Shown: in pieces, positions 18,640 through 29,893 of the stretch
Layout: each line of letters begins with the position of its first letter
Numbering within the stretch: the stretch's first letter is position 1
NCBI RefSeq assembly: GCF_918698095.1
Contig: NZ_CAKKLY010000026.1
Span: 1-64,000 of the forward strand
DNA from: Arthrobacter sp. Bi83
GTDB lineage: Bacteria > Actinomycetota > Actinomycetes > Actinomycetales > Micrococcaceae
DNA length: 64,000 nucleotides
Direction: 5' to 3'
Translations under genes and position numbers: made by a program
The notes under the pieces: model-generated
Seen by the model: only the letters and a program-made list of their open reading frames with translations
Told to the model about the DNA's origin: nothing
Databases searched by the model: none

Positions 18640-19260
18640 ATGACAACTGCAACAATCAAGAAGACCGGCTACAACTGGCGCGTGGCTGACATCGTGGTGG
18701 CGGCACTGATCGCGGTCGCCGGCGGCGTGATCTTCTGGGCCTGGTCCCAGGGCGCCAACCTAATCTCCGCCCCCGTCAACGCCGTGTACCCGCCCCTCTC
18801 CGGCCTCTACGCCGGCGGCTGGATGATTCCGGCGGTGCTCGGCATGCTCATCGTCCGCAAGCCGGGTGCGGCACTGTTCTGCGAAGCCGTCGCCGCCACG
18901 GGCGAGCTGATCATGGGCTCCCAGTACGGCACCACGGTGCTGATCTCGGGCATCCTGCAGGGCCTGGGTGCGGAGCTCGTGTTCGCCGCCTTCATGTACA
19001 AGAAATTCAACCTCCCCGCTTCGCTGCTGGCCGGCGCGGGTGCGGGCCTGTTCTGCGGCCTGAATGACTCCTTCGCTCCGTGGGGCTGGAACATTGCGTA
19101 CGCCGCTGGGGACAAGCTCGCGTATATCGTGTTCTGCGCCATTTCCGGCGCGGTCATCGCCGGCGTGCTGTCCTGGATCGCTACCCGCGGCCTGGCCAGG
19201 ACGGGCGTGCTGAGCTCGTTCGCGTCCCGCAAGGCAGCCACGGAGCCCGTCTTCTCCTGA
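18640..19260 (+). CDS. ykoE: ECF transporter S component YkoE (HMP/thiamine)
   Basis: This substrate-binding membrane subunit of an energy-coupling-factor importer for hydroxymethylpyrimidine or thiamine has 206 residues and about six helices. Typical YkoE segments are VYPPLSGLYAGGWMIPAVLG and GAALFCEAVAATGELIMGSQYG. The ribosome site GGAGG lies six bases upstream of the ATG. The TPP riboswitch directly upstream supports the substrate class. The stop overlaps the ykoD start. Confidence 0.92.
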   Translation: MTTATIKKTGYNWRVADIVVAALIAVAGGVIFWAWSQGANLISAPVNAVYPPLSGLYAGGWMIPAVLGMLIVRKPGAALFCEAVAATGELIMGSQYGTTVLISGILQGLGAELVFAAFMYKKFNLPASLLAGAGAGLFCGLNDSFAPWGWNIAYAAGDKLAYIVFCAISGAVIAGVLSWIATRGLARTGVLSSFASRKAATEPVFS

Positions 19261-20909
19261 TGCCCGCACATTACGACGGCGGCGTCCGCCCAGCCGCGGT
19301 CACCGCCCGCGGCTGGGGCTGGCGCCACGCGGGACGGTCCAGGCCCGCCGTCAACGCGCTGGACCTGGACATCCGGCCGGGGGAGCGGGTCCTGTTGCTG
19401 GGACCTTCCGGCGCCGGCAAGTCCACGCTGCTTCACGCCCTCGCCGGGGTTCTGGGTGACGGCACCTCGGGAAACAGCGCAGCCGGCGACGGCGGCCTTG
19501 CCGACAGCGACGACGCGGACGAGACCGGCAGCCTGCTGATTGCCGGCGAACCGCCGCGCGCGCGGCGCGGCCGCGCCGGCCTCATGCAGCAGGACCCCGA
19601 AACGCAGGTGGTCCTCTCCCGCCTCGGCGACGACGTAGCGTTCGGTGCCGAAAACCTCTCCGTGCCCCGCGACGAAATCTGGACCCGCGTCCACGAGGCA
19701 CTGGACGACGTCGGGCTCGCGCACCTTCCGCTGGACCACGCGACGTCGGCCCTGTCCGGCGGGCAGAAACAGCGCCTTGCGCTGGCCGGCATCCTGGCGA
19801 TGCGGCCGGGGCTCATCCTGCTGGACGAGCCGACCGCCAATCTCGACCCGGCAGGCGTGCTGGAAGTCCGCGACGCCGTGGGCCGCTGCCTCGACAAGAC
19901 GGGCGCCACGCTGGTGGTCGTGGAGCACCGGGTAGCCGTATGGAAGGACCTGGTAGACCGGATCGTGGTGCTGCAGCCTGGATCCGGCACGCAGCCGGCG
20001 GTGCTGATCGACGGTACGCCGGACCAGGTTCTTGAACAAGCGCGCGAGATGCTCATTGCCGCCGGGGTCTGGGTTCCCGGATATGTCCCGGCCGCGCGGC
20101 AGCGGACTCTTGCCGGAACCTCGGCTGAAGTCACGGGCCAGCTGCTGCTCGCCGCAGAGGGCCTGGCCGTCTCACGCGAGCGGCCACGCCGCCGCGGCTT
20201 CAGGTCCGTTCCGCCCGTGCCTGTCCAGCGGGACATCACGGCCCAGGTCCGCGCCGGCGAAGCGCTGACCATTACCGGGCCCAACGGCGCCGGGAAATCC
20301 ACGTTTGCCCTGACGCTCGCCGGCCTGATCCCGCCCGTTGACGGCAAGGTGTCCGCCACCGTGGAACTGAGCCGCGGCGCCGGGATCGACCCGTACAAGT
20401 GGCGGGCCGAGCAGCTGATCGCGAGGATCGGCACCGTGTTCCAGGAACCCGAGCACCAGTTCGTCACGGGCAGGGTCCTGGACGAGCTGCAGTTCGGCCC
20501 GCGGCACATGGGCCACGGGGAAGAGCGCGTTGACGAGCTGCTGGAGCGGCTTCGCCTGACCGGTCTCGTGGACGCCAACCCGTACACGCTTTCCGGCGGG
20601 GAAAAGCGCAGGCTTTCCGTGGCCACGGTGCTCGCGGCCCATCCCCAGGTCCTGATCCTGGACGAGCCGACGTTCGGCCAGGATGCAAACACCTGGGCCG
20701 AGCTCGCCTCCTTCCTGTCCGAACTGCTCGACGCCGGCACCGCCGTGGTTTCCGTGACGCACGACCAGGAATTCACGCATGTGTTGGGCGGGACCGAGTT
20801 CAGGCTCGCCCCCCGGGGACTGGGTCAGCCGGGCACGGCTCAGCCGGGCACGGCTCAGCCGGGCACGGGCGGGCACGCCCTCGGCGCACCGGAACAGGCC
20901 CCGACATGA
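19260..20909 (+). CDS. ykoD: ECF transporter ATPase with two ABC domains (YkoD)
   Basis: This 549-residue protein contains two ATPase domains. The first has Walker A GPSGAGKSTLLHALAG and signature LSGGQKQRLALAG; the second has GPNGAGKSTFALTLAG and LSGGEKRRLSVAT. Each has a Walker B (ILLDEPTANLDP; LILDEPTFGQD). It energises the YkoE/YkoC importer. The ATG at 19260 overlaps the ykoE stop. The C-terminal 20 residues are a QPGTA repeat tail from a 15-bp tandem repeat. Confidence 0.92.
   Translation: MPAHYDGGVRPAAVTARGWGWRHAGRSRPAVNALDLDIRPGERVLLLGPSGAGKSTLLHALAGVLGDGTSGNSAAGDGGLADSDDADETGSLLIAGEPPRARRGRAGLMQQDPETQVVLSRLGDDVAFGAENLSVPRDEIWTRVHEALDDVGLAHLPLDHATSALSGGQKQRLALAGILAMRPGLILLDEPTANLDPAGVLEVRDAVGRCLDKTGATLVVVEHRVAVWKDLVDRIVVLQPGSGTQPAVLIDGTPDQVLEQAREMLIAAGVWVPGYVPAARQRTLAGTSAEVTGQLLLAAEGLAVSRERPRRRGFRSVPPVPVQRDITAQVRAGEALTITGPNGAGKSTFALTLAGLIPPVDGKVSATVELSRGAGIDPYKWRAEQLIARIGTVFQEPEHQFVTGRVLDELQFGPRHMGHGEERVDELLERLRLTGLVDANPYTLSGGEKRRLSVATVLAAHPQVLILDEPTFGQDANTWAELASFLSELLDAGTAVVSVTHDQEFTHVLGGTEFRLAPRGLGQPGTAQPGTAQPGTGGHALGAPEQAPT
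20826..20870 (+). repeat. 15-bp x 3 in-frame tandem repeat at the ykoD 3' end
   Basis: Two identical copies of CAGCCGGGCACGGCT and a third with one change (ending GGGC) lie head to tail. They encode QPGTA, QPGTA, QPGTG after the last recognisable ATPase element. Confidence 0.92.
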
Positions 20910-21709
20910 GGGACGCGCTGAGCCTTTCCGGAAACCAGGCGCTGCTGACCCGGGCCAACCCGCTGGCCAAATTCGCCGCCGTCTTCCTCATCACCCTTGT
21001 TCTGGCCCTGTCCATCGACTGGATGTCCGCGTCCGTGGCGCTGGCCTGCGAACTGCTGCTTTTCCCGCTCGCCGGCCTGACGTTCACGCTGCTCTGGCAG
21101 CGCGGCTGGCCGCTGATTGTCGCTGCCGCCGTGGGCGGCTGGAGCACGTCCATCCTGTCGCCGGACAGCGGGAAGGTACTGCTCGACGTCGGCATCTGGT
21201 CCATGAGCGAAGGTTCCCTCCAGCTGGGGCTGGGTTTCCTGCTCCGCGGCCTCGCGATTGCTTTGCCAGCGGTGCTGCTGATGAGCTGCACGGACCCCAC
21301 CGACCTCGCCGATTCGTTGGCGCAGAAGGGCCGCCTGCCGCACCGGTTCGTGCTGGGCACGCTCGCGGCCATGCGACTCGTGGGGCTCATGGCGGAGGAA
21401 TGGCAGACCATCGGCATGGCCCGGCGCGCCCGCGGCGTGGGGTCCCGGGGCAACCCGTGGCAGCGGCTGCGCGCCACCTTGGGGCAGAGCTTCGGCCTGC
21501 TGGTCCAGGCCATCCGGCGCGCGACCCGCCTCGCCGTCACCATGGAGGCGCGCGGCTTCGGCGGGGCCACACGGACGTGGGCCCGCGAATCGACCTACAG
21601 CCGCTTGGATATCTGGGTGCTGCTCGGCGGAGCGGTGATCGCGGCTGGCGCCGTGGTTGCTGCCGTATGGGCCGGGACCTGGAACATGGTGTGGCTCGAA
21701 GGGTCCTAG
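20906..21709 (+). CDS. ykoC: ECF transporter T component (YkoC)
   Basis: This 267-residue transmembrane coupling subunit of the HMP/thiamine importer has several hydrophobic helices. It carries the characteristic paired Ala-Arg-Gly motifs of T components (GMARRARGV near residue 170 and TMEARGFGG near 212) that contact the ATPases. It overlaps ykoD by four bases and ends the riboswitch-controlled operon. Confidence 0.9.
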   Translation: MRDALSLSGNQALLTRANPLAKFAAVFLITLVLALSIDWMSASVALACELLLFPLAGLTFTLLWQRGWPLIVAAAVGGWSTSILSPDSGKVLLDVGIWSMSEGSLQLGLGFLLRGLAIALPAVLLMSCTDPTDLADSLAQKGRLPHRFVLGTLAAMRLVGLMAEEWQTIGMARRARGVGSRGNPWQRLRATLGQSFGLLVQAIRRATRLAVTMEARGFGGATRTWARESTYSRLDIWVLLGGAVIAAGAVVAAVWAGTWNMVWLEGS

Positions 21710-22270: not shown

Positions 22271-22342
22271 CTAACCATGGGGCAGGGCCTAACCACGGGG
22301 CAGGGCCTAACTACAGGGCAGGGCCTAACCACGGGTCAGGCC
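22271..22342. repeat. 18-bp x 4 tandem repeat, non-coding
   Basis: Four head-to-tail units of an 18-bp sequence start with CTAAC and contain GGGCAGGGC: CTAACCATGGGGCAGGGC, CTAACCACGGGGCAGGGC, CTAACTACAGGGCAGGGC and CTAACCACGGGTCAGGCC. They lie just upstream of the acetyltransferase start and beyond the 3' end of the GH25-like gene. Confidence 0.9.
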
Positions 22343-22381: not shown

Positions 22382-23338
22382 TCAGATGCAGGAGTAGTCG
22401 TAGTCGAAGCCCTTGGAGACGAACTGGGTGAGGATGACCCGGCCGCCGGCGGTGAGGGGCGCGGCCGAGCAGTTGCCCTTGGCCCCGCTGGCCGTGCGGG
22501 CGCCGGGGAGCCAGCTGGGGAGGTTGTAGAGGTTGCTGCCGGGGCTGACCTGGCCAACGATCTGTCCCCACTGGACACCGGTGGAATAGATGCCCACGTC
22601 CGCGTCGATGCTGTGGAAGAAGTCCGTCATGCCCTCAAGGTCTGCCCTGTTGGCGTCTTTGTTGCCGGACCAGCTGTTGCCCGTTTCCACATCCAGCCAC
22701 CACAGATAGTCCTCCGGATTAGTGATGCTGCGGAGGTAGGCGTCATCGAAGGCCTTGGCATATCCGTACATGTAGGCGCACGGGACATCCACCTGCCCCT
22801 TGCACTCGCCGTAGGGGTTCGGCACGGTCTTGCCACCATAGTTGTTGCTTGTGGGCCACCAGGATCCGGCACTGCCGGGGTTGGCGGTGTTGATGTAGAG
22901 GGCCACGCCCGGCTGTCCGGTCAGATCGGAAGAGATGTCATCTGCCCAGTCCAATTGCTGATGCAGGCACGGGTTGGTGGTGTTGGCCAGTCCGTTGTTG
23001 ACGCCGACGATTGCGAACGCCGGGTCCTTGGGCAGGGCCTTGTTGCACTGCGGCCAGGACACGTCGTTGCCGAGCAGCATGGTGCCGCCTGCCGAGGGCT
23101 GGGGCGCGGACGGTTGCGCCAGAGTCGACGGGGCCGCGGGCTGGGCTGGAGCAGCCGGGGCGGTGGCGGACGCCGCGGCCGTAGGCTGAATGATGGAGGA
23201 CTCCGGGGGAGTGCCATCGTCCAGGCGGGGGCCCGGCACGAAGCCCACCGCCGTGGCTACCACGAAGGAGAGAAATGCGGTGGCCTGCTGCCTGGAGGGG
23301 CGCTTCTCGCCGAACACCGCGGAGTTGAAAATGGACAA
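22382..23338 (-). CDS. Secreted GH25/DUF1906-like glycoside hydrolase-fold protein
   Basis: The 318-residue product has an N-terminal signal or anchor helix (ATAFLSFVVATAVGFV, about residues 20-36) and an Ala/Pro linker to residue 85. A TIM-barrel-like domain follows, with GNDVSWPQC, LWWLDVETGNSW, VGIYSTGVQWG and a C-terminal ILTQFVSKGFDYDYSC. The DVE and Asp-near-N-terminus pattern resembles GH25 lysozymes and Rv2525c-like DUF1906 proteins, so a cell-wall role is likely but unproven. The TTG start is chosen because GGGAGG lies five bases upstream. It diverges from the HTH-MurA fusion gene. Confidence 0.7.
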   Translation of the reverse strand: MSIFNSAVFGEKRPSRQQATAFLSFVVATAVGFVPGPRLDDGTPPESSIIQPTAAASATAPAAPAQPAAPSTLAQPSAPQPSAGGTMLLGNDVSWPQCNKALPKDPAFAIVGVNNGLANTTNPCLHQQLDWADDISSDLTGQPGVALYINTANPGSAGSWWPTSNNYGGKTVPNPYGECKGQVDVPCAYMYGYAKAFDDAYLRSITNPEDYLWWLDVETGNSWSGNKDANRADLEGMTDFFHSIDADVGIYSTGVQWGQIVGQVSPGSNLYNLPSWLPGARTASGAKGNCSAAPLTAGGRVILTQFVSKGFDYDYSCI

Positions 23339-23561
23339 GGCGGCCTCCCGTTCCCTTAACTGGCCGCAACCGGTAGCGTTAGCTTGCTCCCGATGGCTTC
23401 CCGGGTCAAGGCCAGCGGCTGTGTCGGTCCGCCGCCTCGCCAGACCTGGTGGCCTGCGCCTCGCTGCCTGCTGCCGGTAGCCCAACCCGCTCTCGTTATC
23501 GCACAGGGCGGGTAAATTCTGGAATTCAACGGGCACCGGCCCGACTTTGCCGCCAAAATAC

Positions 23562-23573
23562 ATCATTTGTGAT
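23562..23573. promoter_or_regulatory. Candidate XRE operator before the HTH-MurA gene
   Basis: ATCA and TGAT are separated by TTTG (ATCATTTGTGAT), in an unusually AT-rich stretch ending in a T-run 12 bases before the start codon. A short palindrome this close to the start fits binding by the protein's own HTH domain. This is inference. Confidence 0.35.
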
Positions 23574-23584
23574 ATTTTTTTGTT

Positions 23585-25108
23585 ATGACACAACAGACTG
23601 CTGAACACGTTGGACTCATGCTCCGCGACGCCCGCGGGCAGAAGGGCTGGACCCAGGGGCAGCTCGCCGCGGAACTCGGAACCAGCCAAAGCGCCGTCGC
23701 CCGAATGGAGCAGGGCAAGCAGAATCTGAGCCTGAAAATGATCCAGCGGCTTGAGGCGATATTCGGCCAGAGCATCGTAAAGCTCGGCAAGTCCCAGATG
23801 ACCCACCTCCGCGTGGAAGGCGGCCGGACACTCTCTGGCTCCGTTGACGTCAACACCAGTAAGAACGCCGGCGTCGCACTGCTTTGCGCCAGCCTTATCA
23901 ACCGCGGCACCACCACACTGCGCCGGCTGGCCCGGATCGAGGAGGTCAACCGGATCGTCGAGGTGCTCGTGAGCATCGGCGTCGAATGCATCTGGCTCAA
24001 CGACAACGATCTCCAGCTCCGCCGGCCCGCCGTGCTGGACCTGGAGTCCATGGACGTTGAGGCCGCCCGCCGCACCCGCAGCGTGATCATGCTCCTCGGC
24101 CCGCTGCTGGACGAAACGGCACAGTATCGGCTGCCGTACGCCGGCGGATGTGACCTTGGCACCCGCACAGTGGAGCCGCACATGCAGGCGCTGCGCCAGT
24201 TCGGGCTTTCGGTGGAGGCCACCGCGGGCTTCTACACGGTGCAGGCGCCGACGTCGGACGCTCTTGACCGTTCCTTCGTGCTCACCGAGCGCGGAGACAC
24301 CGTCACCGAAAATGCCATCATGGCCGCCGCCCACCGGGGCGGCACCACCATCATCCGCAACGCCAGCCCCAACTACATGGTGCAGGACCTCTGCTTCTAT
24401 CTGCAGAGGCTGGGAGTGGAGATCGACGGCGTCGGAACCACCACGCTGAAGATCACCGGCAAGCCGTCCATCGACGTCGACATTGAATACTTCCCCTCCG
24501 AGGACCCCATCGAGGCGATGAGCCTCATCACCGCCGGTATTGTGACGAATTCCGAGGTGACCATCCGCCGCGTGCCCATCGAGTTCATGGAAATCGAGCT
24601 GGCCACGCTGGAGCAGATGGGCCAGAAGCTCGAAGTTTCGGGAGAGTACATGGCCCGCAACGGCCGCACCCGGCTGGTGGATGTGACCACCAAGCCCTCT
24701 GAGCTGCGGGCGCCGGAAGACAAGATCCACCCGATGCCGTTCCCGGGGCTGAACATCGACAACCTGCCGTTCTTCGCCGTGATTGCCGGCAACGCCGAGG
24801 GCCAGACAATGATCCACGACTGGGTCTACGAGAACCGCGCCATCTACCTCACGGAGCTGAACAAGCTGGGGGCCCGGGTGCAGTTGCTGGACCCGCACCG
24901 GATCTACGTCAACGGCCCCACCCGGTGGCGTGCCGCGGAGATCGGCTGCCCGCCTGCCCTCCGCCCGGCGGCGTGCCTGCTGCTCGCCATGCTTGCGGCG
25001 CGGGGCGTGTCTGAGCTGCGCAACATCTACGTCATTGAGCGCGGCTACGAGGACCTGGCCGAGCGGCTCAACACCATCGGCGCCAAGATCGAGTATTTCC
25101 AGGACTAG
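23585..25108 (+). CDS. XRE-type HTH fused to MurA-like enolpyruvyl transferase
   Basis: Residues 8-62 form an XRE/Cro helix-turn-helix (TQGQLAAELGTSQSAVARMEQGKQ). Residues 73-507 are a UDP-GlcNAc 1-carboxyvinyltransferase-like domain, the first step of peptidoglycan precursor synthesis. The key MurA residues appear intact: Lys93-Asn94 in SKNAG, catalytic Cys189 in AGGCDLGTR with Arg194, an Asp in GLNIDNLP aligned with the active-site Asp, and the late Arg in ALRPAA. It could be a second MurA or an enzyme-regulator hybrid. It starts at the ATG after a T-run, without a strong ribosome-binding site. Confidence 0.88.
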   Translation: MTQQTAEHVGLMLRDARGQKGWTQGQLAAELGTSQSAVARMEQGKQNLSLKMIQRLEAIFGQSIVKLGKSQMTHLRVEGGRTLSGSVDVNTSKNAGVALLCASLINRGTTTLRRLARIEEVNRIVEVLVSIGVECIWLNDNDLQLRRPAVLDLESMDVEAARRTRSVIMLLGPLLDETAQYRLPYAGGCDLGTRTVEPHMQALRQFGLSVEATAGFYTVQAPTSDALDRSFVLTERGDTVTENAIMAAAHRGGTTIIRNASPNYMVQDLCFYLQRLGVEIDGVGTTTLKITGKPSIDVDIEYFPSEDPIEAMSLITAGIVTNSEVTIRRVPIEFMEIELATLEQMGQKLEVSGEYMARNGRTRLVDVTTKPSELRAPEDKIHPMPFPGLNIDNLPFFAVIAGNAEGQTMIHDWVYENRAIYLTELNKLGARVQLLDPHRIYVNGPTRWRAAEIGCPPALRPAACLLLAMLAARGVSELRNIYVIERGYEDLAERLNTIGAKIEYFQD

Positions 25109-25134
25109 GTTTTCCCAGCACCAACAGAGCGCGA

Positions 25135-25156
25135 GCGGAGGCTTGAGGCCCTCCGC
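25135..25156 (+). terminator. Hairpin after the HTH-MurA gene
   Basis: GCGGAGG (25135-25141) pairs with CCTCCGC (25150-25156) around an eight-base loop, 27 bases after the stop. A 15-bp direct repeat, CAGAGCGCGAGCGGA, occurs at 25125-25139 and again at 25156-25170. Confidence 0.4.
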
Positions 25157-25272
25157 AGAGCGCGAGCGGACACTTCCGCCCCTCGGGCCAGCCTGCCGCA
25201 GGGCCCCCAGTGATCGTTCGCGCTTTTCGTCATGTCAGGGACGTTTCGGCTGGTCTGACGGACAATGTACGC

Positions 25273-26505
25273 ATGCGGACTTTTGGGGTCGAGGAAGAAC
25301 TGCTGATCGTGGACCCGGGCAGCGGGGAGCCATTGGCGCTCGCTGATGCGCTGCTCTCCGGCCGGAAGCTCGCGGCCGACGACGCCCCGGACAAACCGCG
25401 GCTGCTGCAGAAGCAGACCAGACCCGCTTGCGACGACGGGATGGGCTTGAGTGCCGAGCTCAAGCTCGAACAGATCGAGACCCAGACCCGGCCGTGCCTG
25501 GATTATGAGGAACTGCTCCGCCAGATACGCGCGGGCCGGGCGATGGCCGATGAGGCCGCCCAGCGGCACGGCGCACGGGTCGCGGCGCTCGCAACCTCCC
25601 CTTTGTCCCTCGCAAGCCACACGACGCCGGACCCGCGGTACGCCCGGATGCTCGAGCGCTTCGGCCTGACCGCCCAGGAGCAGCTGACCTGCGGCTTCCA
25701 CGTCCACACCTTCATCGAATCCCAGGATGAAGGCGTGGCGGTCCTGGACAGGATCCGGGACAAGCTGGCCGTCCTGATCGCGCTCAGCGCCAACTCCCCC
25801 TTCTGGCAGGGCGTGGAAACCGGGTTCGAGAGCTACCGTACCCAGGCCTGGAACCGCTGGCCGACATCTGGCCCCACCGCCATTTACGGGAGCCTGTCGG
25901 CGTACCGGCGGGTGGTGACCCGCCTGCTGGACAGCGGGGTGCTGCTGGATGAGGGCATGGTCTACTTCGACGCGCGGCTGTCCCGGAACCACCCCACGGT
26001 GGAGGTCAGGGTGGCCGACGTCTGCCTCCGGGCCGAGGACGCCGCACTGATCGCCGTCCTGGTCCGGGCGCTGGTGGAGTCCGCCAGCAGGGAATGGCAC
26101 CAAGGCGTGGAGCCGGCCCCGGTTCCCACGGTGCTGCTGCGCATGGCGGCGTGGCAGGCCAGTAATTTCGGCCTCCGCGGCGAGCTGCTGGACTTCGGCA
26201 GCTTCCGGCCCGCGCCCGCCGCGGAGGTGGTGCGCTCGCTCGTGGATTTCCTGGAACCGGTGCTCACCGAGAACGGCGAAATCGACCTGGTGCGGCAAGG
26301 GGTCGAGGAGATCCTCTCCCGCGGCACCGGCGCTGCAGAACAGCGCTGCGTCCGGGAGACTGTGATGGAGAAAGCCGCGCCCGACGACGGCGGGCTGGGT
26401 GCCGTCGTCGCGCACGCCGTGCGGGCCACGCTGCGGGGGACGGTCGGCTATGCCGACGCGGAAGCAGAGCCCGTGCCGGAGCTGCTGCGGGTCCGCCAGT
26501 CCTGA
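25273..26505 (+). CDS. YbdK-type carboxylate-amine ligase (glutamate-cysteine ligase 2 family)
   Basis: This 410-residue protein has the GCS2 family start [15 protein letters not shown], with the Glu-rich ATP/metal motif. It continues with [23 protein letters not shown] and [18 protein letters not shown]. YbdK proteins have weak glutamate-cysteine ligase activity, and their true substrates are often unknown. The ATG at 25273 starts directly at the conserved domain; the upstream in-frame extension is not conserved-looking. Confidence 0.87.
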
Positions 26506-27299: not shown

Positions 27300-29861
27300 C
27301 TAAGCACCCATCGTGGACGCCTTCGCGCCCGCCACGGCTGACCGGGCCGTCCTCCTGTGTGCCTTCCACCGGTTTGCCGAGCTGGCAACCCGCGTGCACA
27401 GGGCCCAGTAGGCCAACCCTGCGGCAAGCGAGGCGGTGACGGCCAGCGCGGGGCTGATCCCGGCCAGCGGCGGAAAGACCAGCCAGTGGACCAAGTAGGC
27501 GTACAGAGAAGCGCTGGCCAGCACCACCGTCAGGCGGCGGAGGCCCGTCGGCACAGGAATGGCCGGCAGCCACACCAGCACGAGTATCCCGATGAGGAGT
27601 GTTGCTTCCCGGTTCGCGTTGTCGAAGAACCCGGGAACAGTCAGCGCTGCAATGGCCGACACGGCGCAGCGGTGGCCCAGGTTCCGGGACCGCGCAATCG
27701 CCCAGCCCAGTGCGAAGAGCCAGAGTGCCGGCGCTGTGTGTGGCACTCCGGGGTCGATAATCCCGAAGCGGGTGAGAAGCCCGACGCCGGTCAATGCCAA
27801 GGGGAAGAGCAGGGGGAAGCGCCGCTCGGCACGGCTTGCCCACGGGATGGCGAGCAGGGCGGTCATGCCGACGAGCAGATAGACGAGCACCTCGATGAAC
27901 CAGAAGTGCCACCGCGTGGTCACGGCCTCGGGCCCGATGATGGCGTTGAGGAGCACCACGTTGGCAGGACTGTATCTGTCCGTGATCAGGTACGCTGCAC
28001 CGATGAAGGCCATGCTCGGCACCGCCACCTTGGCCGCGCTCCTGAGCTGCCGCCGCAGGCGGGGGAGCCGTTCCCCCGAGAGCTGGAAACGCGCAAAGTT
28101 GTAGCCCGCCACGGCCATGAGAACGTGGGCCGTCCCTTGCAGGCTGAACAAGCCGACGTGAGTGCTGACGATGCAGACGATCGCGGCCGCCCTGAGGACG
28201 ATGCTGGTTTCCAATGGTGCGAAGAACCGCCGCAGCTTCCGGACTGGCACATCCTCGCGGCGCGGTTCCAGATCGCGGACGGGCGTCAGATGCCAGTCCG
28301 CCGGAAGACGCCCCAGAGCCTGCTCGAGCCTGACGGATGCCGCCACATAGGACAGGGAATCGCCGCCAAGCGAGACGAAGGTGTCGCTGTCGGAGATGTC
28401 CGCACGCTCCAGGGTGTCCTCGAAAATCCTTCTGACGTTGTCCGGCCCCGTTGCGGCGGCGGGCCCCGATGCCGGCTCCGCCGGCTTGGAACCGGAAAGG
28501 GCGAGAACTGCCGGGTAGTCCAGCTTGCCGGTGGCCAGGCGCGGGAGATGTTCGACGGCGTGCACCTCGAGGGCCGCCCGCGGCAGCCCGATACCCTGCG
28601 CGAGGACCTTGCTGAGCAGCCGCGGGTCGTGCTCGCCCTCGACGGCGACGACGAGTCCCTGGTCCGTTCCCGCACTGGCCGCCTGCACCCCGAGGTCCGC
28701 GAGCATCCGTTCCACCTGACCGAGGTCCACGCGCAGTCCCACGATCTTGACGAACCGGCTGCGCCGGCCCACCACCTCGTAAACTCCGGCGGGATGCTGC
28801 CTGGCGAGGTCGCCGGTGCGTAGCTCATGGATGGTCCGGCCCGCTGCGAGATCGTCCGGGCTGCCGGCATAGCCCAGCATGACGTTCGGGCCTGTGTAGA
28901 CGAGCTCCCCGTCGTCCAGCCCTGGGACAGGATCGATGCGGAAGCTCCCGCCGGGCACCGGGGTCCCTATGGCGCCGGGAAACGTGCTGGCGAGTTCCGC
29001 GGGCAGGTAGGACATCCTGGCGGTGGCCTCCGTCTGGCCGTACATCACGAATAAATCCCAGCCGTTGCGGCGTCCCAGCTCCGCGTAGCAGCGCACGTTC
29101 TCCGGGGCCAGGCGGCCGCCGGCCTGGGTGACGTAGCGAAGGAGGGGCAGGTCCATGTCCGCGAACCCTACCCGTTCCAAAAGTTCAAAGGTGTAGGGAA
29201 CGGCCGCGAAGGACGTCGCCGCCTGGCTTCGGAACAGGTCCCAGAAGCACGGGTCAACGACGGAGAGGTCAGTGAGCACCAGGCCGGCGCCGCGGAGCAG
29301 GTGGCTGTTGATCACGGACAGCCCGTAGCAGTACGACATGGGCAGCGTTGTTGCCGCGCGGTCGTGCGGACCGATGCCGAGGTAGTCGGCAATGGACTCG
29401 GCGTTGGACTGCAGATTCTGGTGTGAGAGCCGGACGAGCTTGGGGGAGCCGGTGGAGCCTGACGTGCTGAGCAGGAGGGCAAGATCCGGATGCAGTTGGT
29501 GCCGCGTCCCGGGCCGGCGTTCCTCCAGGACGGTCTGCCCGTTCGCGGACCTCAGGATGACGTCGGGATCGTAGGCCGCCACGAGGGACTCCAGGGCAGC
29601 CGGTTTGTCCTCCGGAAGAAGGATCAGCGGATGGCCGGAGGTCAGCGCCGCCAGGTAGGCGACGAGCGAGTCGAGGTCGTTGGCGGCGGCCAGCGCCACG
29701 AGGCGCCGCTCGGTGCCGAGCCGGAGGGCAAGGGCATCGACGCGGTCCGCCAGGTCCCGATAGGTCAGGGCTTGTCCGTCGGTGAGGATGGCGGGCCTGT
29801 CCCCGTGGCTCGCAAGATCCGCGGCAAAGGACGCCCGCGCGAAATCTAGCTGCGTGGTCAC
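27300..29861 (-). CDS. Adenylation domain - carrier protein - membrane acyltransferase fusion
   Basis: This 853-residue three-part protein (numbering from GTG 29861) starts with an adenylation domain, residues 4-453. It has P-loop STSGSTGSPKL at 132-142, YGQTE at 274-278, TGD near 350 and the catalytic Lys in LATGKLDY at 446. A carrier domain follows (about 473-543) with the phosphopantetheine serine in SLGGDSLS (Ser502). The last 300 residues are a multi-helix acyltransferase-3/OafA-like domain with LRAAAIVCIVSTHVG. It probably activates an amino or carboxylic acid, loads it on its own carrier and transfers it at the membrane. An iron box overlaps the start region. A TTG at 29882 is an alternative start. 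Confidence 0.85.
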   Translation of the reverse strand: MTTQLDFARASFAADLASHGDRPAILTDGQALTYRDLADRVDALALRLGTERRLVALAAANDLDSLVAYLAALTSGHPLILLPEDKPAALESLVAAYDPDVILRSANGQTVLEERRPGTRHQLHPDLALLLSTSGSTGSPKLVRLSHQNLQSNAESIADYLGIGPHDRAATTLPMSYCYGLSVINSHLLRGAGLVLTDLSVVDPCFWDLFRSQAATSFAAVPYTFELLERVGFADMDLPLLRYVTQAGGRLAPENVRCYAELGRRNGWDLFVMYGQTEATARMSYLPAELASTFPGAIGTPVPGGSFRIDPVPGLDDGELVYTGPNVMLGYAGSPDDLAAGRTIHELRTGDLARQHPAGVYEVVGRRSRFVKIVGLRVDLGQVERMLADLGVQAASAGTDQGLVVAVEGEHDPRLLSKVLAQGIGLPRAALEVHAVEHLPRLATGKLDYPAVLALSGSKPAEPASGPAAATGPDNVRRIFEDTLERADISDSDTFVSLGGDSLSYVAASVRLEQALGRLPADWHLTPVRDLEPRREDVPVRKLRRFFAPLETSIVLRAAAIVCIVSTHVGLFSLQGTAHVLMAVAGYNFARFQLSGERLPRLRRQLRSAAKVAVPSMAFIGAAYLITDRYSPANVVLLNAIIGPEAVTTRWHFWFIEVLVYLLVGMTALLAIPWASRAERRFPLLFPLALTGVGLLTRFGIIDPGVPHTAPALWLFALGWAIARSRNLGHRCAVSAIAALTVPGFFDNANREATLLIGILVLVWLPAIPVPTGLRRLTVVLASASLYAYLVHWLVFPPLAGISPALAVTASLAAGLAYWALCTRVASSANRWKAHRRTARSAVAGAKASTMGA

Positions 29862-29870
29862 CCGGACGAT

Positions 29871-29893
29871 GATATTAGCCAAGCCTTACCTAA
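29871..29893 (-). promoter_or_regulatory. DtxR/IdeR-type iron box and -10 element
   Basis: Read on the minus strand, 29893-29875 is TTAGGTAAGGCTTGGCTAA. It matches 17 of 19 positions of the DtxR/IdeR consensus TWAGGTWAGSCTWACCTWA. A TAATAT -10-like hexamer (29876-29871) overlaps its end, with TTTTAC as a possible -35. The GTG at 29861 would then start a nearly leaderless message. Binding would repress the fusion gene when iron is plentiful. Confidence 0.65.

Follow-up and report, generated by a model that had tools for sequence, protein, structure and literature searches.

HTH-MurA, a probable self-regulating MurA of a divergent subfamily with its own N-terminal DNA-binding domain, in Arthrobacter and other actinomycetes

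BirA, PutA and NadR are metabolic enzymes that, within the same polypeptide, also bind DNA and regulate a gene of the pathway in which they act. The first committed step of peptidoglycan synthesis is controlled by mycobacterial CwlM, an Enterococcus PASTA kinase and PrkA, which, in the published excerpts on which we draw, act by signalling to the MurA protein. Here, we describe a gene in a stretch of 64,000 nucleotides from Arthrobacter sp. Bi83 (contig NZ_CAKKLY010000026.1, positions 1 to 64,000; hereafter, the window) that encodes a MurA-type enolpyruvyl transferase fused to an N-terminal helix-turn-helix (HTH) domain. Judged from comparisons of sequences and gene content, this protein, HTH-MurA, is likely to be a real MurA of a divergent subfamily that regulates, and more specifically represses, its own transcription. 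Compared with BirA, PutA and NadR, this enzyme is a MurA, and no target other than its own gene is evident; in contrast to CwlM and the kinases, HTH-MurA would be controlled at transcription, by a part of the enzyme itself. The enzyme part is already in the databases and probably partly in print, and enzymes that act as transcription factors are a known kind, but no paper on the HTH-MurA fusion was found in openly licensed full texts.

One described protein is probably an orthologue. In the passages of PMC12161575, Streptomyces coelicolor SCO5998 is the putative “MurA2”, one of two UDP-N-acetylglucosamine (UDP-GlcNAc) transferases; a DmdR1 site is predicted to separate its gene from the adjoining aconitase gene SCO5999. 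The passages of PMC8346170 describe SCO5998 as monocistronic and SigB-dependent. We judge SCO5998 to be probably HTH-MurA because an aconitase gene also lies near HTH-MurA, within about 6 kb, in 14 streptomycete-type loci (14 of the 15 with a nearby aconitase gene among the 80 loci described below). In 16 streptomycete loci, the printed SCO5998 promoter string did not turn up, the best match being 28 of 46 letters. Unlike what we describe for HTH-MurA, the passages of these two papers name no HTH, self-operator or autoregulation. With canonical MurA (TIGR01072), HTH-MurA has the fold, the phosphoenolpyruvate (PEP) catalytic residues and the apparent cellular role in common; it differs in the N-terminal HTH, the predicted operator of its own, a score below the family cut-off and a different set of invariant acceptor-side residues.

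The features of the locus are listed in Table 1. The HTH_3 domain was present over its cut-off, with a conserved recognition helix, and was directly followed by an EPSP_synthase (PF00275) match of 155 bits at residues 77–495. In the predicted model (mean predicted local distance difference test, pLDDT, 88.7; predicted template-modelling score 0.80), the HTH helices comprise residues 3–20, 24–31, 35–42 and 50–60. The first-pass annotation of the window, made by reading the sequence, had proposed a fusion of an XRE domain to an enolpyruvyl transferase, and this was borne out, as HTH_3 and a complete EPSP_synthase-type domain occupy one open reading frame (ORF). The fusion is no assembly accident, because all 36 other genomes of the same genus that were searched carry it, at 89–96% identity. 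HTH-MurA scored 318.8 bits against NCBIfam NF006873 (PRK09369; UDP-GlcNAc 1-carboxyvinyltransferase subfamily), over the cut-off of 297.

Table 1. Coordinates of the HTH-MurA locus in the window.
Feature	Position	Strand	Remarks
HTH-MurA coding sequence	23585..25108	+	507 aa plus stop; same-genus copies 89–96% identical
HTH_3 (XRE-type) DNA-binding domain	23621..23779	+	residues 13–65; Pfam PF01381 50.5 bits, cut-off 23
Recognition-helix region TSQSAVARMEQGKQN	23681..23725	+	residues 33–47; conserved in intact copies, co-varies with operator
MurA-type enolpyruvyl transferase domain	23804..25105	+	residues 74–507; PF00275 and structure alignment of model
Predicted operator TACATCATTTGTGATATT (family consensus TATCTCATATNTGAGATA)	23559..23576		single occurrence in window; cross-genus conservation
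Putative -10 element TATTTT (TANNNT)	23573..23578	+	12 to 7 nt before start codon; read by eye
Divergent putative secreted protein	22382..23338	-	318 aa from a TTG start picked by eye; considered outside the system

The enzyme part of the model (residues 71–507, without the HTH) was used for a fold search. The best match was MurA 5ujs, with a Z score of 46.5 and a root-mean-square deviation of 2.0 over 414 residues; NikO (PDB 4fqd; Z = 40.8, 27% identity) and AroA (Z = 37.1) were weaker. Residues K93, N94, R165, C189, R194, D392, R418, R460 and R486 of the window protein align with K22, N23, R91, C115, R120, D305, R331, R371 and R397 of E. coli MurA, respectively. We compared 81 HTH-MurAs (the window protein and 80 others) with 35 canonical MurAs (from E. 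coli, the window’s own genome, the best 30 loci of the canonical survey and loci L163–L165). The residues of PEP binding and catalysis common to both sets are K22, N23, R91, R120, H125, D231, D305, R331, R371 and R397, and the PEP-side catalytic residues are invariant in all 81 HTH-MurAs, so that the initial impression of intact key residues held for the PEP side. The C115 position is a cysteine in 81/81 HTH-MurAs, whereas the canonical set has 26 C and 9 D. The aspartate is found in MurAs of other actinobacterial classes, such as those of L163–L165.

The genome to which the window belongs (4.89 Mb in 121 contigs) has three PF00275 genes: an AroA-type gene, a canonical MurA and HTH-MurA. Whether a second, stand-alone murA exists had been raised by the first-pass annotation, and one does: the canonical protein (L002; G000:C2) scored 418.7 bits against TIGR01072, over the cut-off, and is 29% identical to the window protein. 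We infer that the best-scoring PF00275 gene is AroA, because it is absent both from the TIGR01072 matches of the genome at E ≤ 1e-60 and from the matches of the window protein. In this genome, HTH-MurA is a second MurA beside the canonical one, and all 36 same-genus genomes likewise hold a second, canonical-type match.

We surveyed 118 genomes of the family f17, to which Janibacter- and Humibacillus-type bacteria belong (judged from identical tree rows). A canonical murA over the TIGR01072 cut-off was found in 35 of them, and 117 had some TIGR01072 match at E ≤ 1e-40. Both types of gene were present in 29 genomes, HTH-MurA without an over-cutoff canonical murA in 82, the canonical gene only in six (four of which have two canonical genes), and neither in one genome that is 58% complete. 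The 82 include a draft (G625) with a partial, below-cutoff MurA match plus an unlisted third match, and another genome (G652) with an unlisted second match, as well as a few in which HTH-MurA is cut or frame-split (G202, G678 and G702). In G202 (locus L162; G202:C1), the frame of HTH-MurA, the only TIGR01072 match of that genome, is split in two, by a sequencing error or in a damaged gene. A PF00275 search of three 100%-complete genomes (G434, G574 and G650) returned an AroA-type gene and HTH-MurA only. Outside f17, six of 22 HTH-MurA genomes, from four families, also lacked an over-cutoff canonical murA; two of these are single-contig genomes (G277 and G516) and one is a draft, 91% complete (G045). 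From the PF00275 search of three genomes and the TIGR01072 surveys, HTH-MurA can be the sole MurA-like gene of a genome. Since the HTH-MurA-only genomes belong to ordinary walled bacteria and no over-cutoff canonical murA was found in them, it must presumably do the MurA step there, making enolpyruvyl-UDP-GlcNAc. Separately, genome G035 was seen to have five PF00275 genes.

Beyond the same genus, HTH-MurA was found in five of 22 genomes from other families of the same order (64–69% identity), and in 112 of 119 f17 genomes at E ≤ 1e-100. At the same threshold, 86 of 296 genomes in a class-wide sample matched, from 20 of 114 genera, two of them partially. In a phylum-wide sample, 14 of 246 genomes matched at E ≤ 1e-60; 11 of these matches belong to the HTH-MurA subfamily and are all from the same class, and the remaining three are 33–34% identical MurAs with no HTH match and no GDT loop (see below). 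One further copy comes from a metagenome-assembled genome labelled Acidimicrobiia (L098). Carriers include Streptomyces, Arthrobacter, Nocardioides and relatives, and by these searches HTH-MurA is a widespread subfamily of one bacterial class.

We compared the upstream regions of 80 named loci, the best 80 of 588 confirmed matches, a set biased towards close relatives. A short palindrome just before the start codon had been noted at the outset. Taken by itself, the window copy is at chance level, with 5 of 9 pairs matched, and 5 is also the best score obtained most often when upstream regions are shuffled. We nevertheless judge the palindrome to be real because it is conserved across genera, with the form TATCTCATATNTGAGATA in distant genera and a looser, TAnCTCATnTGTGATATT-like form in the Arthrobacter group. 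In profiles aligned on the best match of each locus, a choice biased towards the motif, information content was 1.52 bits/position against 0.23 in the flank for 39 distant loci, and 1.22 against 0.22 for 41 Arthrobacter-group loci. The right edge of the predicted operator lies 8–12 nt from the start codon in 75/80 loci; in the window, it ends 8 nt from the enzyme start codon and about 220 nt from the start of the divergent ORF. A TANNNT motif starting 12–14 nt before the start codon gave 37 matches over the 39 distant loci, and one starting at 10–13 nt gave 32 over the 41 near (Arthrobacter-group) loci. In relatives, 10–14 nt is the dominant position of the motif. It overlaps the right half-site, an arrangement that suggests a leaderless mRNA with an operator reaching the -10 element.

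The operator and the recognition helix were compared over 151 copies of HTH-MurA (some genomes being counted twice), 150 of which have an alignable HTH; locus L267 has none. Sites were scored out of 17 and helices by how many of eight marker residues they retain. The helix is intact in 145 of the 150 copies (6–8 residues) and eroded in five (2–4 residues). A site score of at least 10 was found in 143 of 145 intact copies and 0 of 5 eroded ones; when the upstream sequences of the 80 named loci were shuffled letter by letter, about 20% of the shuffles came up to this value. With one copy per genome in 53 genomes of f17, a score of at least 12, reached by about 1% of the shuffles, was found in 48/48 genomes with an intact helix (15 that have an over-cutoff canonical murA and 33 that lack one) against 0/5 with an eroded or missing one. 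The HTH is eroded or missing and the operator gone in L214, in genus g23 (L220, L264, L265 and L162, the last of which was scored at both the HTH and the operator and entered the tree as a partial row) and in L267, while L266, from a genome listed in g23, keeps both. In L267 (G650), the best operator match was 8 over a stretch from 300 nt before a candidate start to 120 nt after it; its sister genome G434 (L221), of the same genus, has both HTH and operator. L214 (G035:C35) is the second HTH-MurA copy of its genome and has diverged further (78% identity); its recognition helix is eroded and the operator absent.

The specificity of the predicted contact appears to change along with the helix. 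All ten copies with the substitution S36G have an A at position 3 of both half-sites, compared to 1 of 128 copies that keep S36, the exception being L231; S36G thereby goes with half-sites of the TAACTCA type and S36 with TATCTCA. When only the f17 set is considered, the left half-site has this A in 10/10 S36G copies and 0/44 others. The ten represent eight distinct copies (two pairs, L083/L257 and L090/L250, do not differ in the enzyme domain) and fall in several parts of the FastTree tree with moderate support, the number of origins not being firm. Similarly, L100, with the recognition helix TTQSVVNR, shows a symmetric change of the operator to TATCGCA/TGCGATA. Relatedness among the copies makes formal significance too strong, and we rely instead on the repeated pattern.

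The first-pass annotation had named an eroded recognition helix in relatives as a refutation of its proposal. Such erosion does occur in a few relatives, but the operator is gone there too, which speaks in favour of a link between the two and not against one. The same absence bears on the notion that the HTH is vestigial or purely structural and the palindrome a promoter element only, as a bare promoter element would stay when the HTH erodes. Loss of the HTH is evidently tolerated in L267, g23 and L214, and the overlap of TANNNT with the right half-site is what a promoter element would give, but with both half-sites changing alongside recognition-helix residues in the S36G copies and in L100, we regard this explanation as very improbable. 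By comparison of the copies, the N-terminal HTH is shown to be matched to the palindrome of its own putative promoter, and conservation and co-variation agree in pointing to what is expected of a trigger enzyme, that its own domain recognizes a site in the target promoter.

Does the predicted operator occur elsewhere? We scanned 27 genomes, eight with up to two mismatches to a 16-letter pattern and 19 with up to one mismatch to a 14-letter pattern. The site was at the promoter of the HTH-MurA gene in 22 of the 27 (coordinates compared by hand). Off-promoter matches numbered seven, compared to five for a reversed-pattern control, and two of the seven are one coding site in two related genomes. 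This site, the second two-mismatch one, which two streptomycetes (L152 and L153) have in common, was rejected as an operator because the gene in which it falls is orthologous in both and the site is coding. In the window’s own genome, where the short pattern is too weak to be decisive, the one exact match was at the gene’s own promoter, and there were 75 one-mismatch matches against 19 for the control. The operator appears close to unique in the scanned genomes, and as far as the scan reaches, no wider regulon is seen.

HTH-MurA had also been envisaged as regulating a regulon of peptidoglycan supply and turnover that includes the divergent, hydrolase-like secreted gene upstream. In the window, both genes border one intergenic region, and the neighbour recurs in seven of the 80 loci; it was not found in the other 73 (flanks of up to 6 kb, some shorter). 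The operator occurs without it and, in the window, is far nearer to the enzyme gene than to the start of the neighbour. With off-promoter matches near the control level as well, we consider such a regulon distinctly unlikely. From the original proposal of direct control of wall genes, a conserved predicted operator in the interval that had been named was retained, placed at HTH-MurA’s own gene, while control of the secreted neighbour and a wider wall regulon were dropped. The divergent ORF exists, but its GH25-like character was not supported: it had no Pfam match (E ≤ 0.01), no NCBIfam match (E ≤ 0.001) and no PDB sequence match (E ≤ 1), and its model confidence (pLDDT 40.9) was too low to read. 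The lysozyme-like neighbour is probably irrelevant to the system.

A number of observations weigh against a self-repressing MurA. On the enzyme side, HTH-MurA failed the TIGR01072 equivalog cut-off (309.7 against 392.7 bits), and its full-length relatives, at about 285–326 bits, are likewise below it. MurA residues 120–124 and 160–163 contact UDP-GlcNAc. Residues S162, E188, P189, D369 and D49 are invariant in the 35 canonical MurAs and found in none of the 81 HTH-MurAs, all of which have the replacements S162G, E188N, P189Y, D369P and D49E; V163 (30/35 canonical) and G164 (31/35) have become D and T, with a GDT loop in place of SVG. The alignment of D369 adjoins a one-residue insertion (PPALRP vs. 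TD-LRA), which leaves either P457 or A458 as the aligned residue. In the passages of PMC4062475, the E. coli ligand residues given are Lys22, Cys115, Arg120, Asp305, Asp369 and Leu370. Because the acceptor-side residues are replaced and the TIGR01072 cut-off is failed, the identity of the substrate rests on gene content. On the regulatory side, the window’s own operator copy is degenerate, and a generic sigma-70 scan of 23300–25300 found no promoter. A site score of 10 is a weak threshold, given the shuffles; two copies with an intact HTH (L068 and L110) score below it and two others (L049 and L073) only reach it, while in L057 and L069–L072 another place scores as well as or better than the operator. 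The losses of HTH and operator amount to few events: one genus with four copies, one second copy and one HTH deletion. Finally, repression rather than activation is suggested by the position of the operator only.

The enzyme-side points raise the question of a different acceptor. NikO is a secondary-metabolite enzyme whose acceptor is UMP (uridine monophosphate); it too is a MurA-like enolpyruvyl transferase, and its match spans the enzyme domain only and is farther in fold than MurA. HTH-MurA might similarly use an acceptor other than UDP-GlcNAc, with the HTH tying the enzyme to that pathway. This would fit the different invariant set of acceptor-side residues, the second, canonical-type match in all 36 same-genus genomes and the very long stem of the subfamily: in the tree, the 15 sampled members are set off by one branch that has full support and a length of 3.88 changes per column, although the program warned of long branches meeting and the exact attachment of the subfamily is unsure. 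On the other hand, 82 of 118 f17 genomes and six of 22 others lack an over-cutoff canonical murA, the fold is nearer to MurA than to NikO or AroA, and the GDTVTEN loop is present in 151/151 copies, whether HTH-MurA is the sole MurA or accompanied by a canonical one. We therefore regard another acceptor as unlikely. A different substrate, suggested by the remodelled acceptor side, had been considered as the main explanation and was dropped as such after the gene-content surveys.

For a self-repressing MurA, the following mechanism may be proposed. An HTH-MurA dimer would bind the palindrome just upstream of and overlapping the putative -10 box of its own promoter, and the bound dimer would block RNA polymerase, so that the enzyme level is capped by negative feedback. 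More speculatively, the substrate-, product- or UDP-N-acetylmuramic acid (UDP-MurNAc)-bound state could change the affinity for DNA. In such a metabolite-gated circuit, operator affinity would depend on which ligand occupies the active site (UDP-GlcNAc, PEP adduct or UDP-MurNAc), so that one protein, the sole MurA of whole lineages and with a remodelled acceptor pocket, both measures and sets peptidoglycan flux. We offer this extension tentatively, as possible rather than probable.

No gene widely common across orders was found beside HTH-MurA in the neighbourhoods of the 80 loci. CbiQ was near it in 37/80 loci and GCS2 in 29/80, all among L034–L074 (Arthrobacter, Sinomonas and similarly labelled). 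In the window, ECF-type transporter genes (ABC_cobalt and CbiQ domains) lie upstream at 18640–21709 (+). At 22275–22340, in the gap that separates an acetyltransferase gene from the divergent ORF’s end, a short GGGGCAGGGCCTAACCACG-like unit, read by eye, is repeated head to tail in three to four nearly identical copies. At 27300–29882 (-), a large protein has AMP-binding, PP-binding and acyltransferase domains in one chain.

If HTH-MurA is indeed a self-repressing MurA, it would constitute a direct feedback circuit in one polypeptide, in many genomes apparently acting on the only MurA. Residues that are invariant in canonical MurAs, including D369, would apparently be exchangeable with function kept, which bears on inhibitor design. 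The natural pairs of S36G and operator variants, together with the natural losses of the HTH, make the circuit directly testable.

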